From Saprospiraceae bacterium (GTDB lineage: Bacteria; Bacteroidota; Bacteroidia; Chitinophagales; Saprospiraceae), in NCBI GenBank assembly GCA_020629515.1, contig JAHDDE010000003.1:62001-126000 (forward strand): a stretch of 64,000 nt of DNA, in the 5' to 3' direction. Each line of letters begins with the position of its first letter. Positions within the stretch are counted from its first letter, which is position 1. Of the stretch, positions 2,456 through 10,874 are shown one piece after another. Below the pieces are notes generated by a model, which saw only the letters and a program-made list of their open reading frames with translations, was not told the DNA's origin and did not search any database. Made by a program: the position numbers and the translations under genes.

Positions 2456-2533
2456 GTTTTATTAAAACATTTAGCTCAATACTTTCGACAATTGGACAAA
2501 AGTTTAAGAGATTGAGCTCAAGAAATATTGAAA

Positions 2534-3808
2534 ATGTTGAAAGATGTAAACTATCGCTCTGACCGCACTTTTGCTCTTGATATGGATCAAAATGATCACC
2601 TCAAAAGCTTCAGAGATCTATTTTTTATCCCAAAAAATAATAATGGTTCAGACTCTATCTATTTCTGTGGAAACTCACTTGGATTACAGCCCAAAAATTG
2701 CAAAACAGAAATCGATCAAGTCCTCAACGCATGGTCTAAAAGAGGTGTAGAATCTTGGTTTGAGTCGGATGCATCATGGATAAACAGTCATTCTACTCTT
2801 AAAGAGAGCATGAAAAAACTAGTCGGATGTATGAATAGTGAAATTGCCATAGCAAATTCGCTTTCAGTCAATTTGCATCTTCTCCTCCTTTCTTTTTATC
2901 GACCTAACCAAACACGATACAAAATTATCATTGAAGCTAATGCATTTCCGTCTGATCAATATATCGTTAAATCTCAAGCTCATTTTCATCAATATGATGT
3001 TAATGATACTATCATCACCATCTCACCTAAAAAAGGAAAAATCAATATAGAATACGATGACATAGCAACTTGTCTTCAAAACCATGGTCATCAGACATCG
3101 ATAATTCTCCTCGGTGGTGTTAATTATGTAAATGGTCAAGTACTCAATCTTAAAAAAATCACCCAATTAGGACATCAGTATGGATGTATGGTAGGATTTG
3201 ATTTGGCTCATGCCGTGGGCAACATACCTCTAAATCTGCATGATGATGAAGTAGACTTTGCAGCATGGTGCAATTACAAATATCTCAATGCAGGACCAGG
3301 AAGTGTGGGGGCATTTTATATACACCACAAACACCATTCATCTAACCTACCCAGATTGGAAGGATGGTGGGGCAATAGTCTCGATAGCAGATTCTTAATG
3401 AAAGATAAGTTTGATCCAAGTTATGGAGCTGAAGCTTGGGTGATGAGTACTCCATCTCAACTGAACTATGCAGCTCTAAGGGCATCTTTAGAGATATTTG
3501 ACATGACCACAATCGAAGATCTACGTCAGAAATCAATTCTCCTCACGGGATATTTAGAATACCTCATTGAAAATCTAAGTAATACTGATATAGAGTTGAT
3601 CACACCAAAAGATCGCAATCAACGAGGCTGTCAGCTTTCATTAAAAATTAAAAATGGTAAAGAAGTATTTGAAGGTCTTATTAATAGCGGAGTCATCTGT
3701 GATTGGAGAGAACCTGATATAATTCGTATAAGCCCGGCACCATTATACAACACGTTTGAAGAAGTCTACAATCTTGTATTAATATTATCAGACTTAGTGT
3801 CAAAATAA
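2534..3808 (+). CDS. kynU: Kynureninase
   Basis: Kynureninase is a PLP enzyme that cleaves kynurenine or 3-hydroxykynurenine to anthranilate or 3-hydroxyanthranilate plus alanine. The 424-residue product has the usual length and family motifs: IYFCGNSLGLQP near the N-terminus, GVNYVNGQVLNL, GFDLAHAVGN, and the PLP lysine in WCNYKYLNAGPGS (about residue 249). The ATG at 2534 is preferred to an in-frame TTG at 2528. No other tryptophan-catabolic gene is adjacent, so the gene stands alone in this window; a role in tryptophan use or NAD synthesis would need partners elsewhere. Confidence 0.93.
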   Translation: MLKDVNYRSDRTFALDMDQNDHLKSFRDLFFIPKNNNGSDSIYFCGNSLGLQPKNCKTEIDQVLNAWSKRGVESWFESDASWINSHSTLKESMKKLVGCMNSEIAIANSLSVNLHLLLLSFYRPNQTRYKIIIEANAFPSDQYIVKSQAHFHQYDVNDTIITISPKKGKINIEYDDIATCLQNHGHQTSIILLGGVNYVNGQVLNLKKITQLGHQYGCMVGFDLAHAVGNIPLNLHDDEVDFAAWCNYKYLNAGPGSVGAFYIHHKHHSSNLPRLEGWWGNSLDSRFLMKDKFDPSYGAEAWVMSTPSQLNYAALRASLEIFDMTTIEDLRQKSILLTGYLEYLIENLSNTDIELITPKDRNQRGCQLSLKIKNGKEVFEGLINSGVICDWREPDIIRISPAPLYNTFEEVYNLVLILSDLVSK

Positions 3809-3867: not shown

Positions 3868-4452
3868 TTAGGATTGTAGTTGAAGATGACGCTCTTCAAC
3901 CATTTTTCTCATATTAATTAATGCATATCTCATTCGACCCAAGGCAGTATTTATACTTACCCTCGTTAATGATGCTATTTCTTTAAAACTCATGTCTGCA
4001 TAATGTCTCAAAATCACCACTTCCCTTTGTTCTGCAGGTAGCATATTCACTAATTCTTTGATTTTTGCATAAGTTTGATTTTTAACCATAGTGGTCTCCA
4101 TATTATCATCCTTTACTTCTAAAACATCAAAGATATCGAAGGTTTCGGATGGAGAAACTTTAGTTCTTCGTTTTGACCTTCTGAAGTAGTCTACGCACAA
4201 GTTATAAGAAATTCTCATAGCCCATTGCAAGAACTTTCCTTCATGATTGTATTTCCCTTTTCTTAGGGTATCTATTATTTTTATAAATACTTCTTGGAAG
4301 ATGTCCTCGGCTAAATCGTGATCTTTTACGAACAAATAAATGGACGTGTAAATTTTTTCTTTATGTCTATTTAATAAAACTTCGAAAGATTTTTGATCGC
4401 CAGTGAGGTATAATTCGATCAAACGCTGATCATTCAATTTCTTATAATCCAT
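3868..4452 (-). CDS. ECF-type RNA polymerase sigma factor
   Basis: The 194-residue protein has only the two domains of group 4 sigma factors. Region 2 (about residues 10-95) includes DLAEDIFQEVFIKI and the -10 binding stretch FLQWAMRISYNLCVDYFRR. Region 4 (about 135-185) includes LPAEQREVVILRHYADMSF and the helix-turn-helix EIASLTRVSINTALGRMR. It would direct RNA polymerase to a stress or envelope regulon. No anti-sigma gene follows it: the next gene downstream, kynU, is convergent. The control of its activity is therefore not visible here. The linker of about 40 residues is charged and variable. Confidence 0.92.
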   Translation of the reverse strand: MDYKKLNDQRLIELYLTGDQKSFEVLLNRHKEKIYTSIYLFVKDHDLAEDIFQEVFIKIIDTLRKGKYNHEGKFLQWAMRISYNLCVDYFRRSKRRTKVSPSETFDIFDVLEVKDDNMETTMVKNQTYAKIKELVNMLPAEQREVVILRHYADMSFKEIASLTRVSINTALGRMRYALINMRKMVEERHLQLQS

Positions 4453-4758
4453 ATCTCTAATAACTTATACTGTTAATGAAAAAATCAATAATTAATTAGA
4501 GTAGAATTTTATCTATAAATATATTTTTAAGAAATGAATGAAATTAGAAGTGAACTTTCTAAATACGATTCAAATAAAGAATTCATTTTTAATAAAGTCA
4601 AGTCTTAAGTTAAATTTAATTGATATTAATTCAGTTATACTTAGGGAAAACCATTAATATCATATTTATTAACGTAATACTCAGGGTTTTCTTACCTGTG
4701 TTTGTCTTAAGTATATTAAGGTTTATTTTTAAATTGATTACATATCAACCATAAAGCA
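4453..4758. other. Divergent intergenic region between sigma factor and H-NOX genes
   Basis: This 306-base AT-rich stretch contains no open frame worth calling. It should hold promoters for both flanking genes, but I see no full TTG-N19-22-TAnnTTTG match for either. It does contain the direct repeat at 4637-4686 and a loose 8-base inverted repeat (4532-4539 and 4581-4588). Confidence 0.6.
4637..4686 (+). repeat. Direct repeat ATACTYAGGG upstream of the H-NOX operon
   Basis: ATACTTAGGG (4637-4646) and ATACTCAGGG (4677-4686) match at nine of ten positions and start exactly 40 bases apart, about 75-120 bases before the H-NOX start. GAAAACC (4646-4652) and GGTTTTC (4685-4691) at their edges also form an inverted repeat. 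LytTR regulators usually bind paired direct repeats, but their spacing is typically nearer 21-22 bases, so the site may belong to another regulator. Confidence 0.4.
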
Positions 4759-5307
4759 ATGAAAGGAATAGTTTTTACAGAATTTTTGGAGATGGTAGAA
4801 AAAGAATTCGGATACGATACTGTCGATGACATATTGGAAAACTCCGATCTGCCTTCTGGAGGGGTATATACTGCGGTCGGAACCTATGCTCACGGAGAAA
4901 TGATACAGCTAATATCGAATCTTTCTTCAATTACTAAAATTACAGTTCCCGAATTACTCAAATCCTATGGCCAATACTTATTCAATACATTTTTAAGGTC
5001 TTATCCTGCATTCTTTGAAAGGTCAAAAAATTCTTTTGATTTTTTAGAATCAATAGATAATCATATACACGTGGAGGTAAAAAAGTTATATCCAGATGCT
5101 GAGCTACCAAGATTTGAGACCTCGAGAATTGATGAAACGACCTTAGAGATGATTTATACCTCTCAAAGAAAAATGAGTGCTTTTGCTGAGGGGCTCATAG
5201 AAAAAACTCTAGAGCACTATGGCGATAACATTTCATTAAAAAAAGAAGCAATAGACGAAGAAGGAACACAAATTAAATTTACCATAGTAAGATCTAAAAT
5301 GTCGTGA
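4759..5307 (+). CDS. H-NOX (heme NO-binding) sensor protein
   Basis: This 182-residue stand-alone H-NOX domain binds heme and senses nitric oxide in the cytoplasm. The porphyrin-contact motif YxSxR is intact (Y133, S135, R137). By alignment to the soluble guanylate cyclase pattern HxxxxxxYP, the proximal heme ligand is His104. The position five after R137, where oxygen-binding members have a distal tyrosine, is Phe142, so a NO-selective rather than O2-binding pocket is inferred. Its stop overlaps the GTG start of the hybrid kinase, the classical H-NOX/kinase pairing in which ferrous-NO H-NOX controls kinase autophosphorylation. NO response is inferred from the family, not shown. Confidence 0.92.
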   Translation: MKGIVFTEFLEMVEKEFGYDTVDDILENSDLPSGGVYTAVGTYAHGEMIQLISNLSSITKITVPELLKSYGQYLFNTFLRSYPAFFERSKNSFDFLESIDNHIHVEVKKLYPDAELPRFETSRIDETTLEMIYTSQRKMSAFAEGLIEKTLEHYGDNISLKKEAIDEEGTQIKFTIVRSKMS

Positions 5308-7811
5308 CCACAGACATTGAAAAGTTACAAAGAAGGATAGAGCGCGAGCGCAAGGCTCGAAAAGCTGCAGAAGCTATACTCGAAGAGAAGGCCTTGCAAT
5401 TGTATGATGCTAATCAAAATCTCCTACACCTTAATAAAGGTCTTGAAGCAAGAATAAACGAAAGAACTCAAAAATTAAAAGAAAGTGAAGCAAGATTTAG
5501 GACTCTTGTAGAAACTGCTACCGATGTGATCTTCAACACAGATCAGAATGGCGTTTTCACCTATATGAATAGGACTGGATTGCGTATATATGGATATGAA
5601 GAGAAAGAAGTAATAGGTAAGCACTTTCTGGACTTTATAGATAATCAGGATAGAGAGAAGTGCTATGATCATTTCATGGACTTGTTGGAAAATAAAATTG
5701 AAGAAAGCTATTTTGAATTTAGAGTACTAAAAAAGTCGAACGAAGTGATCTGGGTCGGTCAGAATACCAAAAGGTTAGATATTGATGGAATCACCTCGTT
5801 CACGGCGGTCGCACGTGACATTACGGCTAAAAAAGTGGCAGAGATTAATCTGGTTAAGGCCCGAGAAGCCATTAAAAAAAGTGAGCAGAAATACCGTAGC
5901 ATGATAGAAAATATGCAGCTTGGTATATTAGAAGTAGATCTCGAAGGCTATATCATAAGAGCATATGATCAATTCTGCATTATGGTAGGCTATAAAGAAG
6001 AAGAATTAGTTGGTCAAAAATCTGATGTTATGCTCATCAGTGAAGAATTCCAAGTAGAAATATCGAATAAGCGAGAAAATTTGGAATCACATGCTTCTGA
6101 ACTACAGCTCATCAAAAAAAATGGAGAGCACATTTGGGCGATCATGAGTGGTGCACCGATGTATAATGAGTTCAATGAAGTCATTGGCACTGTAGGGATA
6201 TTTTTTGATATCAGCGAACAAAAGGAGCTTCAAGAACAACTACATGGGGCAAGGATTACTGCAGAAAATGCTCAATTAGCTGAAAAGCATTTCTTGGCAA
6301 GTATGAGCCATGAGATAAGAACTCCGTTAAATGCTATAATTGGCATGGCTCATCTCCTAAAGGACACTCCTCTCAGTACAGATCAATCTGAATATTTAGA
6401 CATCTTAACTAACAGCGCAAGTTTACTACTTGGATTAATCTCTGACATCTTGGACATTTCCAAAATTGATGCAGGAAAAATGGACTTGCAAGAAAACCCT
6501 GTTAATCTCCATAAAATCATCAGGGCCATTGAGAAGACCTTCAGAATGAAGCTCAAAGATAAAAACGTTGAAGTCTTAACATTTATAGATAAAGATATTG
6601 ATACTCTACTACTAACAGACCAGATGGTGCTTAATCAGATATTGATTAATCTTGTCGGCAATTCAGCTAAATTCACTTCCGATGGTAGCATCAGAATTAA
6701 TGTGATACAAGAACAAAAATATAGTGGTAAAAGAAAAATTCTTTTTGAGATAATCGATACTGGCATTGGGATAAGTACGGATAAGCACGACCTCATTTTT
6801 GACAAATTCAAACAAGCTGATAGCAATATTATCAACACTTATGGCGGCACGGGATTGGGCTTAAGTATTACAAAGAAGCTAATCAATCTCATGGGTGGTG
6901 AGATCTACCTCGAGAGCGAAGTTGGTAAGGGTTCTAAATTTTTCTTTTCTATACCTATAAAGGATAGTGGTATAGCTCTTGAAAACGAGGTGATTCCTGA
7001 CACTCAAGAATTAACCAGTGAAAAAATCAATCAGGATTTATACATTTTAGTCGTGGAGGATAACCTAATGAACCAAAAATATATCTGTACCCTCTTCAAT
7101 AAATGGAATATACATTATAAAGTAGCACAGAATGGAAAGGAGGCAGTAGAAAAATGTATGGAAGAAAAGTATAGTCTAATACTTATGGACCTGCAGATGC
7201 CTATCATGACAGGAATAGAGGCGACTGAGAAAATAATCAATGAAGAAGGATTAAATAATAATACTCCAATAGTTGCGCTGACAGCTTCGACCTTTTTATC
7301 TAAAAAGCAAGCTGCACTGGAGGTTGGAATGAAAGACTTTTTGTCTAAACCTTTTACTCCAGATCAGCTCATACGGGCAATTGAAAAAAATATTGCTGGA
7401 GAAATAGTCAACATACAAAATGATGAAATAATGGGATTTAAATTTTCGGAACAACTCGATACCACTTTTTTGGAGGAGGTTTATGGAGATGATATGGAAT
7501 ATGCCATGGATATTTTCGAGATATTCATTGAGACTTTTGATGAAGAATATGACTTACTCAAAGTTGCTATAGCCGAAGGTAGCAGCTCCGATGTAAAAAG
7601 TATCGCACACAAAATGAAACCAACATTTAGCATGGTTGGATTATCTGATATCACCTCACTATTTCAACAATTAGAAAAATTAGGACTCGAGGCGAACACA
7701 GTGGGATATCAAGAACATTTTGAAAGTATTGATGAGAATTTAAATAGAAAGCTTAGTTTAGTAAAGCAAGAATTAAAAAATATTCAAGAATATCTCTCTA
7801 AAGCTGAATAA
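5304..7811 (+). CDS. Cytosolic hybrid histidine kinase with two PAS, receiver and Hpt domains, H-NOX partner
   Basis: The 835-residue protein lacks membrane segments. Domains in order: coiled coil (1-62), PAS (63-180), PAS (190-308), HisKA with phospho-acceptor His336 in MSHEIRTPLN, HATPase (about 435-552; N box N453, G1 box DTGIG from 485, G2 box GGTGLGL), receiver (578-695; acidic pair E585/D586, phospho-acceptor D629, K682) and Hpt (about 712-830; His769 in IAHKMK). All relay residues are present, so phosphate could pass H336-D629-H769 and then to the LytTR regulator encoded directly downstream. The GTG start overlaps the H-NOX stop. The coiled coil or first PAS is a plausible docking surface for H-NOX; this is inference. 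Confidence 0.92.
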   Translation: MTTDIEKLQRRIERERKARKAAEAILEEKALQLYDANQNLLHLNKGLEARINERTQKLKESEARFRTLVETATDVIFNTDQNGVFTYMNRTGLRIYGYEEKEVIGKHFLDFIDNQDREKCYDHFMDLLENKIEESYFEFRVLKKSNEVIWVGQNTKRLDIDGITSFTAVARDITAKKVAEINLVKAREAIKKSEQKYRSMIENMQLGILEVDLEGYIIRAYDQFCIMVGYKEEELVGQKSDVMLISEEFQVEISNKRENLESHASELQLIKKNGEHIWAIMSGAPMYNEFNEVIGTVGIFFDISEQKELQEQLHGARITAENAQLAEKHFLASMSHEIRTPLNAIIGMAHLLKDTPLSTDQSEYLDILTNSASLLLGLISDILDISKIDAGKMDLQENPVNLHKIIRAIEKTFRMKLKDKNVEVLTFIDKDIDTLLLTDQMVLNQILINLVGNSAKFTSDGSIRINVIQEQKYSGKRKILFEIIDTGIGISTDKHDLIFDKFKQADSNIINTYGGTGLGLSITKKLINLMGGEIYLESEVGKGSKFFFSIPIKDSGIALENEVIPDTQELTSEKINQDLYILVVEDNLMNQKYICTLFNKWNIHYKVAQNGKEAVEKCMEEKYSLILMDLQMPIMTGIEATEKIINEEGLNNNTPIVALTASTFLSKKQAALEVGMKDFLSKPFTPDQLIRAIEKNIAGEIVNIQNDEIMGFKFSEQLDTTFLEEVYGDDMEYAMDIFEIFIETFDEEYDLLKVAIAEGSSSDVKSIAHKMKPTFSMVGLSDITSLFQQLEKLGLEANTVGYQEHFESIDENLNRKLSLVKQELKNIQEYLSKAE

Positions 7812-8513
7812 ATGGGCCTGAAAACAATCATAGTAGACGACGATCAAGTCGCAACAAAGTCAATGGAAAGGCTCTGTGGCAAAAAAGAGCAAATAGATCT
7901 TCAAGGTTCGTTCAATAATCCAATAGAGGCTATTAAGTTCTTAGGTCAGAATGAAATTGACTTATTACTATTGGACATAGAGATGCCAGAACTGACTGGT
8001 CTGGAGCTATTAGATCAACTCAGTGTTATGCCACAAGTCATATTTACTACCAGTAATAAAGAATATGCCTATGATGCATTCGAATATGATGTAACAGATT
8101 TTCTTAAAAAACCTATAACTCAAGAGAGATTTTTTAAGTCTATTGACAAAGCTATTGATCGAGATGAAAACTTAAAAGATGTTGCTAAAAATAGTAACTT
8201 AAAAGAAATCTACATCCGTACCGATGGCAAATTGATTAGAATCGCAATAGATGACATTTTATACTTTGAAAATGTGGGTGACTACGTTAAAATAATCACT
8301 CAAGACAAAGTCCACGTCATCAATATAGCCCTTAAACATCTACACGTTAAATTGAATCATCCGAGACTTCTTAAAGTACATAGATCCTATATTGTCAATA
8401 TGGATAAAATAAAAGACATCCAAGAGAATACCCTTTTGATCAACAAAAAAGTAATCCCGATCAGCAGGGCCCATAAATCTATAGTGATGAACACTATCAA
8501 CATAATAAACTAA
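7812..8513 (+). CDS. LytTR family response regulator
   Basis: The 233-residue protein joins a receiver domain (residues 4-120; acidic cluster DDD at 9-11, phospho-acceptor D55 in LLLLDIEMP, conserved lysine in FLKKPI) to a LytTR DNA-binding domain (about 135-233) with the family signature ILYFENVGDYVKI and LLKVHRSYIVN. The ATG follows the kinase stop codon with no spacing, so it is the likely output of the H-NOX phosphorelay. LytTR regulators commonly control extracellular polysaccharide, adhesion or quorum genes; the target here is unknown. Confidence 0.92.
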   Translation: MGLKTIIVDDDQVATKSMERLCGKKEQIDLQGSFNNPIEAIKFLGQNEIDLLLLDIEMPELTGLELLDQLSVMPQVIFTTSNKEYAYDAFEYDVTDFLKKPITQERFFKSIDKAIDRDENLKDVAKNSNLKEIYIRTDGKLIRIAIDDILYFENVGDYVKIITQDKVHVINIALKHLHVKLNHPRLLKVHRSYIVNMDKIKDIQENTLLINKKVIPISRAHKSIVMNTINIIN

Positions 8514-8516
8514 AAA

Positions 8517-8545
8517 AATCCCTTGAAGTTTTTCAAGGGATTTTT
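8517..8545 (+). terminator. Rho-independent terminator of the H-NOX operon
   Basis: AATCCCTTGAA (8517-8527) and TTCAAGGGATT (8532-8542) form a perfect 11-base stem with a 4-base loop, running into TTTTT. It lies four bases after the LytTR stop codon. Confidence 0.88.
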
Positions 8546-8762
8546 CTTTGGGGTTAAAGAGTCAATTGGTTTATTGGTTATAGTTTTTTGGGTTAACTAT
8601 AACTCTTTGATTGTTTCTGACTACAAGATAGATCAGACTAAGAGACATCGATTCCCAAATTCGATACATGGACGAGATACCTATATTTTTGGTGTTCTGA
8701 GCCCGGAAAGTTGTAAATGAGTTCTAATTGATATTATAACCTTTCTTCTATACGACCTACGC

Positions 8763-10874
8763 TTATCTAATATGATACTTTAATCTTAACCCAGATGTGG
8801 TATAATTAAACCCTGTAGCAGAAGATTGAGCAGCGTTGCTATAATTATAAAAAGCTGTGAACTCTAAGTCATGACTCAATCTATAACCAAGACTTGTTTC
8901 TATTCTAATTGTACTTTGACTTAATTGTTCTTCAATTTTTTGAGTACCTAATGCCAAAAATGCCCTATATATTATTTTGGCTCTGACATTACTACTGTTT
9001 TCTGTAGACAAGAAGTATTCTAACGAATAAAATCTCGAAGGACTAAAATATACTATTGGTCTTTGCAGCTCATACTGAAAAAATAGAAAATTGAACCCTG
9101 TTTTAATATTTGGAATCTTCTTTAGATCGTAATAAGGTGATATAAACATAAGAAATCGAGTATTATCATCATTTTGCGTAGTACCCATAAATTGTGAATA
9201 AATACCTAATCCTCTGAATGTCGTTGCGAAATAATTTAATTCAAAATTATGTGAAGACAGCCCCTCATTAACCAATCCAAATGTAAAGTCCTGAAAATCA
9301 GTAAAATATTTAAATGTGAAATTATGGTGTTTTTGGACTATAGTCTTAAAAGTTAAAGTGGCATTCAATTGATTTCCATTTGATATCTCAGCTGAAGTAT
9401 TTTTTGCCAAGCCTATTGAAGCATTAATTGAGCTATTGGCATTTATGATATAATTTGTACCTGCAGCAAATCTCGGAATGCTCAGCTTTTGCCCACCCTG
9501 TAATGTATACGAAGATCTACTCTTGAAATTCACAAAGGGTTCCCATCTTTTATAAGAATTGAATTCTATCTGTGCATACATATTATCAGAAAGATTGCCT
9601 CCATTATCCTCTCCTCTGTAGTATTCTAACCGCATTGTGGTTGAGTTTTCTCGATCTATCTGATTTTGTAATCTAATCACATCAGGTTGATTAGGAATGA
9701 TGGTAGATGATTTTTTTAAATATTCTTGCGCATGACTATCCTCCTTAAAATTTCTCATAAGATCAACCATATTCATATTGACATCATAGACATCCTCATT
9801 TTGGGGATACAATAAACTATATAACTCTTTGGCTTTTTCTTTATCCCTACTCCAGAGGTGCAACCTTGCTTCGGCTAATTCAATATCTAAATGATTTGAA
9901 GCGACACCTTTAATTATGTCTAACAATTCAAAGGACTTCCTGAAATTACCAACTATCCCATACGCGTTGATCTCTGTTATTTTTGCCTTAACTAATTCAT
10001 CGTTATTTACGATATGATCATCCACATACTTCGAGGCCTTTTGGGCGTAATTCAAAGACTTTTGGGGATTATGGAGCAGTAGGTTGGCATATGATAGACC
10101 AAGATAACCCTCTAAACTATCGATATCGTTGTCAAGTAGTTTTTCGTATACTGGGATGGATTGTTTGATTTTCCCCCAGAGAATATAATTAATAGCTTGA
10201 TTCAACAGAGCAAGCCTATCTTTTGGCATTATTGAGAGTATTTCTGACAGATATCCATCTGCTGAATCATAGTCTGCACTTTTTCTCGCATCAGCTGCCA
10301 ATCCCAAAAGAATAAATTTCTTTGAGTTTAATGCGCCAGCATCATCTGGGACAACAGAAAGTGCCCTATTAATTAGTAATTCAGCTGTCAAATACTCTTT
10401 TAAATTCGAATAGGTATTTGCCCCACCAAGTAATGCCACAAAATTGTTAGGATGATCTTGTAGAATTTCCTCATAAGCCAATTTTGCTTTGGGGTATAAA
10501 TTTTGCCACAGCAATGATTCTGCATAGTTCAATTTGATCTCAAGATCATCGGGATATTCTATTAGCATATCATTGAATAATTCAGTAGACTTTTGTGCTT
10601 GGCCAGATAAGCCCAATGCTCTCGCATAACAAAGTTGAGCAGTTTTGTCACTGGGATTACTTTCAAGGTAATCCTTAAAAAATTCTTTGGCATCTAAAAA
10701 CGATCCGCTCTCAAGCATATCAAATCCCTTTTGCATAGGGGATTGTCCAGTTATACCTGTCGATATAAATAGATAGAGGAAAACATAGACAAAAAGTTGT
10801 CTAAAAAAGGTCCAATGATAAATTAATAGTGAACGTACAGTCATTTTCTTATTGAAGGTGATGATGTGATACAT
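8763..10874 (-). CDS. TPR protein with C-terminal YaiO-like outer-membrane beta-barrel
   Basis: The 703-residue product has an N-terminal signal segment (hydrophobic stretch about residues 24-42, cleavage likely near TGQS), then TPR-type helices to about residue 400, then an aromatic-rich region of alternating strands (about 410-703) ending in LKYHIR, as in the YaiO barrel family. TPR plus barrel is the architecture of polysaccharide exporters such as PgaA and BcsC. The gene faces away from the GT4 gene over 74 bases, and the locus holds other polysaccharide enzymes, so export of a polymer through the barrel is the working inference. A second in-frame ATG at codon 11 is an equally possible start. 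Confidence 0.75.
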   Translation of the reverse strand: MYHIITFNKKMTVRSLLIYHWTFFRQLFVYVFLYLFISTGITGQSPMQKGFDMLESGSFLDAKEFFKDYLESNPSDKTAQLCYARALGLSGQAQKSTELFNDMLIEYPDDLEIKLNYAESLLWQNLYPKAKLAYEEILQDHPNNFVALLGGANTYSNLKEYLTAELLINRALSVVPDDAGALNSKKFILLGLAADARKSADYDSADGYLSEILSIMPKDRLALLNQAINYILWGKIKQSIPVYEKLLDNDIDSLEGYLGLSYANLLLHNPQKSLNYAQKASKYVDDHIVNNDELVKAKITEINAYGIVGNFRKSFELLDIIKGVASNHLDIELAEARLHLWSRDKEKAKELYSLLYPQNEDVYDVNMNMVDLMRNFKEDSHAQEYLKKSSTIIPNQPDVIRLQNQIDRENSTTMRLEYYRGEDNGGNLSDNMYAQIEFNSYKRWEPFVNFKSRSSYTLQGGQKLSIPRFAAGTNYIINANSSINASIGLAKNTSAEISNGNQLNATLTFKTIVQKHHNFTFKYFTDFQDFTFGLVNEGLSSHNFELNYFATTFRGLGIYSQFMGTTQNDDNTRFLMFISPYYDLKKIPNIKTGFNFLFFQYELQRPIVYFSPSRFYSLEYFLSTENSSNVRAKIIYRAFLALGTQKIEEQLSQSTIRIETSLGYRLSHDLEFTAFYNYSNAAQSSATGFNYTTSGLRLKYHIR

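Follow-up and report, generated by a model that had tools for sequence, protein, structure and literature searches.

A probable nitric oxide-sensing H-NOX phosphorelay with a LytTR transcriptional output in a Saprospiraceae bacterium

The closest described H-NOX systems are HnoX-HnoK of S. oneidensis and V. cholerae (with HnoB, HnoC and HnoD), Vibrio HqsK and Caulobacter HnoK. HnoX-HnoK has a stand-alone H-NOX beside a histidine kinase, as the present locus does. Its H-NOX is of the cysteine-zinc kind, and it mainly controls a c-di-GMP phosphodiesterase (PMC8738867). The same review agrees with the original prediction that the outputs established so far lie mostly in c-di-GMP or quorum circuits. 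One transcriptional output is listed there, the transcription factor HnoC of S. oneidensis, which is a further likeness to the operon described here. Vibrio HqsK and Caulobacter HnoK are H-NOX-controlled hybrid kinases with a receiver (PMC12329717, PMC6769237). HqsK passes phosphate on to LuxU, a separate protein of the quorum circuit, and Caulobacter HnoK has no known target. No description of an H-NOX-to-LytTR pathway was found in the accessible parts of the literature searched, including texts that name both, although this is no proof of absence.

The window analysed here is a stretch of 64,000 nucleotides from a Saprospiraceae bacterium (contig JAHDDE010000003.1, positions 62,001 to 126,000). 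A three-gene operon of an H-NOX, an Hpt-bearing hybrid kinase and a LytTR regulator, with overlapping or abutting genes, had been predicted in it. The open reading frames and Pfam domains bear out this layout. The GTG start of the kinase overlaps the stop of the H-NOX gene, and the regulator begins immediately 3' of the kinase stop. The features are as follows.

4637-4686, + strand, two ATACTYAGGG copies at a distance of 40 nt, 5' of the operon; weakly supported as a possible operator
4759-5307, + strand, H-NOX (HNOB) haem sensor, 182 aa (ORF, Pfam)
5304-7811, + strand, hybrid histidine kinase, 835 aa, PAS-PAS-HisKA-HATPase-REC-Hpt (ORF, Pfam)
5313-5462, + strand, conserved N-terminal helix of the kinase (alignment A1), proposed H-NOX input module (profile, prediction)
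5493-5822, + strand, PAS domain 1 of the kinase (Pfam)
5922-6218, + strand, PAS domain 2 of the kinase (Pfam)
6285-6476, + strand, HisKA with the phospho-acceptor His336 (Pfam, residue check, conservation)
6618-6959, + strand, HATPase_c of the kinase (Pfam)
7044-7385, + strand, kinase receiver with Asp629 (Pfam, residue check, conservation)
7512-7760, + strand, Hpt of the kinase with His769 (Pfam, residue check, conservation)
7812-8513, + strand, LytTR response regulator, 233 aa (ORF, Pfam, regulator tree)
7827-8144, + strand, regulator receiver with Asp55 (Pfam, residue check, conservation)
8229-8480, + strand, LytTR DNA-binding domain of the regulator (Pfam)
8512-8547, hairpin terminator, assigned to the - strand in the scan, its sequence being symmetrical; perfect 14-nt inverted repeat at 8514-8545, loop of 4

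The inverted repeat closes the operon at its 3' end. The 5' neighbour is a divergent ECF sigma gene (3868-4452, - strand), and the 3' neighbour is a convergent gene (8763-10874, - strand). The operon differs from HnoX-HnoK in that its kinase is a hybrid carrying a fused Hpt and its regulator is of the LytTR kind. It differs from HqsK and Caulobacter HnoK in that the Hpt is fused to the kinase and the operon itself encodes the regulator.

The H-NOX protein matched HNOB (PF07700) over residues 2-161 with 153.9 bits (curated cut-off 25.5). It has the proximal His104, the Y133xS135xR137 motif and the hinge glycines G71 and G145. The His104 column is conserved, with His in 129 of 131 H-NOX rows (the exceptions are one R and one X), and His104 is therefore the probable haem ligand. 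His102 was rejected as the ligand, its column being variable (H, Y, V and others). The distal residue is F142, as predicted. No Tyr was found in this column among 63 rows of the same type; we take the column to be equivalent to Tyr140 of the O2-binding protein. The window protein contains no cysteine and thus lacks the three cysteines that mark the Cys-zinc redox-sensing H-NOX proteins (groups 2-4 of PMC7108781). Its best sequence matches were the solved structures 6bde, 6bdd and 6ocv (174.5, 171.8 and 153.1 bits), in whose alignments F stands opposite F142 of the window protein. These structures presumably hold the sensor alone, and 6bde and 6bdd are presumably the Kordia algicida protein. 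The PDB entry of 6bde/6bdd calls it an aldolase.

The kinase gene lies directly 3' of the H-NOX gene and its core is intact, as expected of an H-NOX-associated kinase. The Hpt scored 32.1 bits (Pfam cut-off 24.6), and the Response_reg and LytTR domains of the regulator scored 70.1 and 67 bits, both above their cut-offs. The relay residues H336, D629 and H769 and D55 of the regulator are all intact, which confirms the prediction. The first three are invariant in 56 of 56 kinases with REC and Hpt, and D55 is kept in 34 of 34 LytTR regulators encoded in the fetched stretches.

The window regulator belongs to a LytTR subfamily found beside H-NOX genes. In the regulator tree it grouped with support (98/90) in a set of 15 regulators that all come from H-NOX operons, and eight other LytTR proteins of the same genome fell outside this set; the tree leaves out a tenth LytTR place (L233), which has an internal stop and was not recovered. 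BtsR, LytR and AgrA have the same REC and LytTR architecture, and the window regulator scored below the NCBIfam equivalog cut-offs of all three (124.9/246, 74.3/375 and 38/400 bits, respectively).

ATACTYAGGG occurs three times in the window against 0.14 expected. As a LytTR operator it was rejected: it is no genome-wide motif, with 12 genome sites against 14 for the reversed control. It was not seen by eye in the last 260 bases 5' of 27 other LytTR-type loci, and 19 upstream regions scanned for direct repeats and k-mers gave nothing above shuffles and no common DNA motif. Position 4637, where the original prediction began the operon, lies 5' of the first gene and corresponds to one ATACTYAGGG copy.

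A feature that adds to the original prediction is a conserved helix of about 50 residues at the kinase N-terminus, which no Pfam family covers. Structure prediction gave a helix of 70 residues (aa 2-71) that contains the conserved block (pLDDT 72-93). Residues 1-67 of the window kinase had no Pfam match, and among the 72 N-termini of this NT type a few coiled-coil families were matched, each by one or two members. Alignment A1 omits two of 30 sequences that failed a regular expression. Because the same expression fixed part of the A1 motif, conservation was taken from a different analysis.

Other kinases encoded behind H-NOX genes have the same helix as the window kinase. Searched against 395 genomes of the phylum, the profile of the helix gave 14 matches in 13 genomes, all 14 directly behind an H-NOX gene, with five A1 rows (the window, L139, L140, L144 and L150) belonging to both profile and sample. 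The helix stood directly behind 14 of the 30 H-NOX places in these genomes. The profile gave 18 matches in 303 genomes from the class to which a Glaciecola genome belongs, a sample that shares one A1 row (L036) with the profile. All nine matches of at least 45 bits were directly behind H-NOX, whereas one of the nine below 40 bits was; the helix stood directly behind 10 of 21 H-NOX places. A generic coiled coil was tested and rejected as an explanation; high-scoring matches were confined to H-NOX neighbours and low-scoring ones were not. Weak helix matches thus also exist apart from H-NOX, and L241 has one on a GGDEF-EAL-like protein.

The LytTR output is of a kind not usually linked to H-NOX, and the arrangement recurs in related bacteria, among them the cultivable environmental Runella (L006). 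LytTR was present in 25 of 46 Bacteroidota operons with the NT-helix kinase type; for such operons in the phylum sample the figure was 8 of 13. None of the 27 H-NOX rows outside Bacteroidota had LytTR. It was not seen in the remaining 21 of the 46, six of which are cut by the end of the stretch. Of the 131 H-NOX rows, 72 stand next to a kinase with the NT helix and 45 next to one with HNOBA; in 12 no kinase follows directly, and in 2 the kinase belongs to neither type. The HNOBA kinase adjoins the second H-NOX type in 45 of 50 rows, the other five being without a kinase directly behind. In the 131 rows, neither H-NOX type ever occurred with the other type's kinase. L161 and L183 had been removed before counting as duplicates of L005 and L038 (identical neighbourhoods), the broken H-NOX of L048 counts as two rows, and L143 was scored NT on a partial match. 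On the H-NOX tree, which leaves out three of the 131 rows (too short or holding X), the kinase-type split is one change on one branch (SH-aLRT 100, quick method), while outputs change often. The clean pairing goes back to this one ancient split, and it therefore counts as one event, not as 116 independent ones.

We consider that the operon probably encodes a dedicated NO-sensing multistep phosphorelay with transcriptional output, in which H-NOX acts through the kinase helix. H-NOX would bind NO at a ferrous haem held by His104, with no distal Tyr, and would change shape around the Gly71/Gly145 hinge. It may then act on the kinase at its N-terminal helix, which continues into PAS domain 1. As with the characterised H-NOX kinases, that of Caulobacter excepted, autophosphorylation of the kinase would most likely be inhibited by H-NOX in its NO-bound form. 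Without NO, phosphate would pass from H336 to D629, H769 and D55 of the regulator, which would then bind DNA; with NO, the relay would stop and the LytTR regulon would change. In Caulobacter, Fe(II)-NO H-NOX gave no inhibition of its kinase (PMC12329717), which warns against assuming NO control of the window kinase. Of the predicted NO-to-transcription pathway, comparison bears out the joint recurrence of sensor, kinase and regulator in Bacteroidota, and the high-scoring matches to the kinase helix lie behind H-NOX genes.

The claim that the pathway is complete in three genes may be too narrow: FIST inputs share the Hpt and LytTR in related operons, and two candidates for such an input occur in this genome. 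It is possible, though doubtful, that the relay has inputs besides the H-NOX kinase, with FIST/NosP-linked hybrid kinases that carry a receiver but no Hpt also feeding His769 and the LytTR regulator. In seven related operons (L133, L135, L145, L147, L150, L151 and L152, of which L151 is of the window's own family), the gene order is REC, H-NOX, kinase, FIST protein, kinase, Hpt and LytTR; a single Hpt and LytTR there serve both H-NOX and the FIST protein with its kinase. FIST is absent from the window operon, and FIST proteins are encoded elsewhere in the genome. The best two of 20 other receiver matches in the genome (60 and 43% identity) are on kinases beside FIST proteins (the C31 and C77 kinases); both have a receiver and no Hpt match, and no regulator or Hpt was seen by eye among the ORFs of at least 100 aa beside them. 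However, these kinases lie on other contigs than the window operon, and the receiver likeness may simply mirror kinase paralogy. FIST N and FIST C were both found in two of the genome's three FIST proteins, which were scanned for both, and the third has at least FIST N. Two of the three were scanned against the NCBIfam NosP model and missed its cut-off, one with 85.1/450 bits and one with no match.

The occurrence of FIST near group 1 hnox genes has been published before (PMC8738867 section 10). A wider proposal, possible though doubtful as a whole, is that H-NOX and FIST/NosP converge on a single dedicated Hpt-LytTR module in Bacteroidota, an NO hub in which input units (H-NOX with an NT-helix or HNOBA kinase) would be exchanged while the output stays, and that in this genome His769 of the H-NOX kinase would be the Hpt common to two FIST-linked hybrid kinases without one of their own, so that one LytTR regulator would integrate three haem-type sensors.

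It is improbable that H-NOX senses a signal other than NO (redox state, haem occupancy or CO) carried by the same relay. In Caulobacter, the Fe(II)-NO form is inactive and cysteine oxidation is active (PMC12329717), but this redox mechanism needs a cysteine-zinc site. As the window H-NOX has no cysteine, the redox reading was not retained. Cellulophaga and Runella proteins are named in the group without the site (PMC7108781 section 14). A kinase driven mainly by its PAS domains, with H-NOX as an accessory or haem-handling protein, is very unlikely: the window kinase has two PAS domains and the number of PAS matches varies among relatives, from zero upwards, but the feature that the relatives share is the helix, several kinases of 564-589 aa have the helix and no PAS match by profile, and H-NOX type and kinase N-terminus change together on the H-NOX tree.

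Section 5 of the 2022 review (PMC8738867) records no high-resolution H-NOX/partner complex as solved, and the conserved helix shows where to look for H-NOX docking. The helix would also predict the kinases or cyclases that respond to an H-NOX. A dedicated NO-sensing phosphorelay ending in a LytTR regulator would provide a defined transcriptional output for NO signalling in Bacteroidota.

The H-NOX operon of the window consists of three genes, and Pfam confirmed their domains:

4759-5307, + strand, ORF, H-NOX protein gene (HNOB)
5304-7811, + strand, ORF, hybrid kinase gene (PAS, PAS, HisKA, HATPase, REC, Hpt)
7812-8513, + strand, ORF, LytTR regulator gene (REC, LytTR)

Successive genes overlap or abut on the + strand, as the original prediction of an H-NOX, Hpt-bearing hybrid kinase and LytTR operon held. 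The relay residues were also found where it had placed them: H336 (HisKA), D629 (REC) and H769 (Hpt) of the kinase, and D55 in the regulator receiver. They were invariant among 56 kinases carrying both REC and Hpt, and among 34 LytTR regulators. The operon looks self-contained because the flanking genes on either side have the opposite orientation. A perfect 14-nt hairpin lies 3′ of the regulator gene. The motif ATACTYAGGG occurs twice 5′ of the operon, 40 nt apart (window 4637-4646 and 4677-4686); three copies were observed in the window against 0.14 expected, and genome-wide there was no enrichment. An operator of the LytTR regulator was searched for and not found. A kynureninase match lies at window 2528-3808 (434.5 bits, cut-off 246.4); its ORF begins at TTG in the ORF list, and the actual start may be further in. 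The genome carries one H-NOX, three FIST places and ten places with LytTR, of which one contains an internal stop.

The best solved relatives of the window H-NOX were 6bde/6bdd and 6ocv. Its proximal histidine is likely His104, and the YxSxR motif and both hinge glycines are present. Column 142 is F, L, V or W across 63 rows (H-NOX entries) of the type found in the window. The protein contains no cysteine, and one study groups Cellulophaga and Runella proteins with H-NOX lacking the cysteine-zinc redox site (PMC7108781). Given these sensor residues, the missing cysteine and the published grouping, haem-based NO sensing is the simplest reading.

Genomes with PF07700 numbered 27 of 395 in the phylum, 57 of 298 in the order (56 above the cut-off) and 78 of 199 in the family, the window's genome included each time. 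A protein search of genome contigs with the window H-NOX gave 48 loci. Wider flanks were taken for all 29 further H-NOX places of the phylum sample and, mostly for top-scoring places, as 31 stretches out of 83 places listed in the family and 20 out of 60 in the order. A LytTR regulator stood in the same gene run in 31 of 131 H-NOX rows, as detected with a profile that was seeded with the LytTR domain of the window and that divergent LytTR may escape. It accompanied 25 of 46 Bacteroidota operons whose kinase starts with a conserved helix of about 50 residues (NT kinase), 6 of 45 operons whose kinase N-terminus matches HNOBA, and none of 27 rows (26 loci) whose record titles place them in other phyla. 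Six of the 21 Bacteroidota NT operons without LytTR reach the end of the available stretch. In the phylum sample alone, window excluded, LytTR occurred in 8/13 NT and 3/10 HNOBA operons.

The H-NOX start and the kinase type went together. Among 50 rows starting MYG or MHG, 45 adjoin an HNOBA kinase (all 45 N-termini matched HNOBA by Pfam), and in five no kinase follows directly. Rows starting MKG (n = 63) adjoin an NT kinase in 58 cases, none in four and another kinase in one; for the 18 rows with other starts, the numbers are 14, three and one. No crossing of H-NOX type and kinase type was seen among the 131 rows, and HNOBA was absent from the 25 most frequent of the 36 families matched by the 72 NT-type N-termini. 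An H-NOX tree of 128 rows, made with a quick method, carries long-branch warnings; on it, the coupling-type split required one change (SH-aLRT 100) and LytTR presence 17, at least six by starred branches. The sequences therefore indicate that sensor and kinase N-terminus were inherited as a unit while the output was exchanged. The pairing goes back to a single ancient split, not to many independent events.

The first ~60 residues are common to the 72 NT-type kinases, which come from several phyla. E23 and E27 are invariant, and R14, A18, R19, A22, L26, K29, L33, L40 and L47 are conserved in at least 90%. Residues 1-67 of the window kinase had no Pfam match; AlphaFold2 predicted a single helix at 2-71, followed by PAS1 (pTM 0.46; helix block pLDDT 72-93). 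The number of PAS domains differs between NT kinases and the helix is constant. A helix profile built on 28 NT-type N-termini found 14 places in the 395 phylum genomes; matched by coordinates to the 30 H-NOX places there, all 14 lie directly behind an H-NOX, with recall partly built in by five profile rows from this sample (window, L139, L140, L144, L150). The lack of further matches there is not an artefact of the profile rows. The profile was also run on 303 genomes from the class to which a Glaciecola genome belongs: 10 of 18 matches lie directly behind an H-NOX (10 of 21 H-NOX places), including all nine of at least 45 bits, one of which (L036's) is a profile row. Of the others, one lies 1.2 kb and one about 12 kb from an H-NOX on the same contig, and six are on contigs without a listed H-NOX. 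The 20 non-Bacteroidota genomes that gave loci held three extra matches, two of them behind an H-NOX by reading. The third (L241:4111-6243) starts a protein reading as PAS-GGDEF-EAL without an adjoining H-NOX; this protein may answer to its genome's H-NOX in trans. For S. oneidensis HnoK, Rao and others (2017) reportedly located H-NOX binding in the N-terminal domain, which would fit the helix as input module.

A tree combined the 34 regulators found in H-NOX stretches with eight further LytTR proteins encoded in the window's genome. The window regulator grouped, with support (98/90), in a set of 15 whose members all come from H-NOX operons, and the genome's other LytTR proteins fell outside it. 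A second set of 12 (100/99), standing behind both H-NOX types, came from another family of the class, probably Flavobacteriaceae, plus locus L151 of the window's family. The Hpt-LytTR pair that follows the H-NOX operon at L149:7471-9742 appears duplicated, with a second ORF reading like Hpt and a closely similar second regulator.

FIST proteins occurred within the operon in 12 of 131 rows, and both FIST domains were confirmed in the two proteins checked. In seven of the 12, Hpt and LytTR follow the FIST protein, in the order REC, H-NOX, kinase, FIST, kinase, Hpt, LytTR; L151 is one of these. The occurrence of FIST proteins close to group 1 hnox genes has already been published (PMC8738867). 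In the Myxococcota locus L042, the genes behind an NT-type H-NOX kinase encode a FIST protein and another kinase, and the pairing of H-NOX with FIST extends beyond Bacteroidota. The stretch L173:3375-9900 (- strand) combines the two H-NOX types, each accompanied by the kinase type proper to it, with a single LytTR regulator behind them; L006 is similar, except that the NT kinase there is present only as a fragment of 128 aa. In the window's genome, the receivers closest to that of the H-NOX kinase belong to two hybrid kinases linked to FIST proteins (60 and 43% identity), in which no Hpt was matched, and this suggests that they may share one Hpt with the H-NOX kinase. One, at L239:5747-9263 (contig C31), follows a FIST protein and has the 60% identical receiver; the next ORF resembles a nitronate monooxygenase by reading only. 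The other is at L237:3394-6302 (contig C77), and its FIST protein scored 85.1 bits against NCBIfam NosP (cut-off 450).

Each part of the H-NOX, kinase and LytTR system is already known. The literature searched, a limited collection, yielded no LytTR output for H-NOX or its spread in Bacteroidota, no description of the H-NOX-linked kinase helix and no single LytTR common to H-NOX and FIST sensors. NO would most likely inhibit the relay, because characterised H-NOX systems behave so (PMC8738867, PMC7108781); Caulobacter is an exception (PMC12329717). The best reading is that H-NOX would signal through the kinase helix to H336, from which phosphate would pass to D629, H769 and D55 and so to the LytTR regulon.
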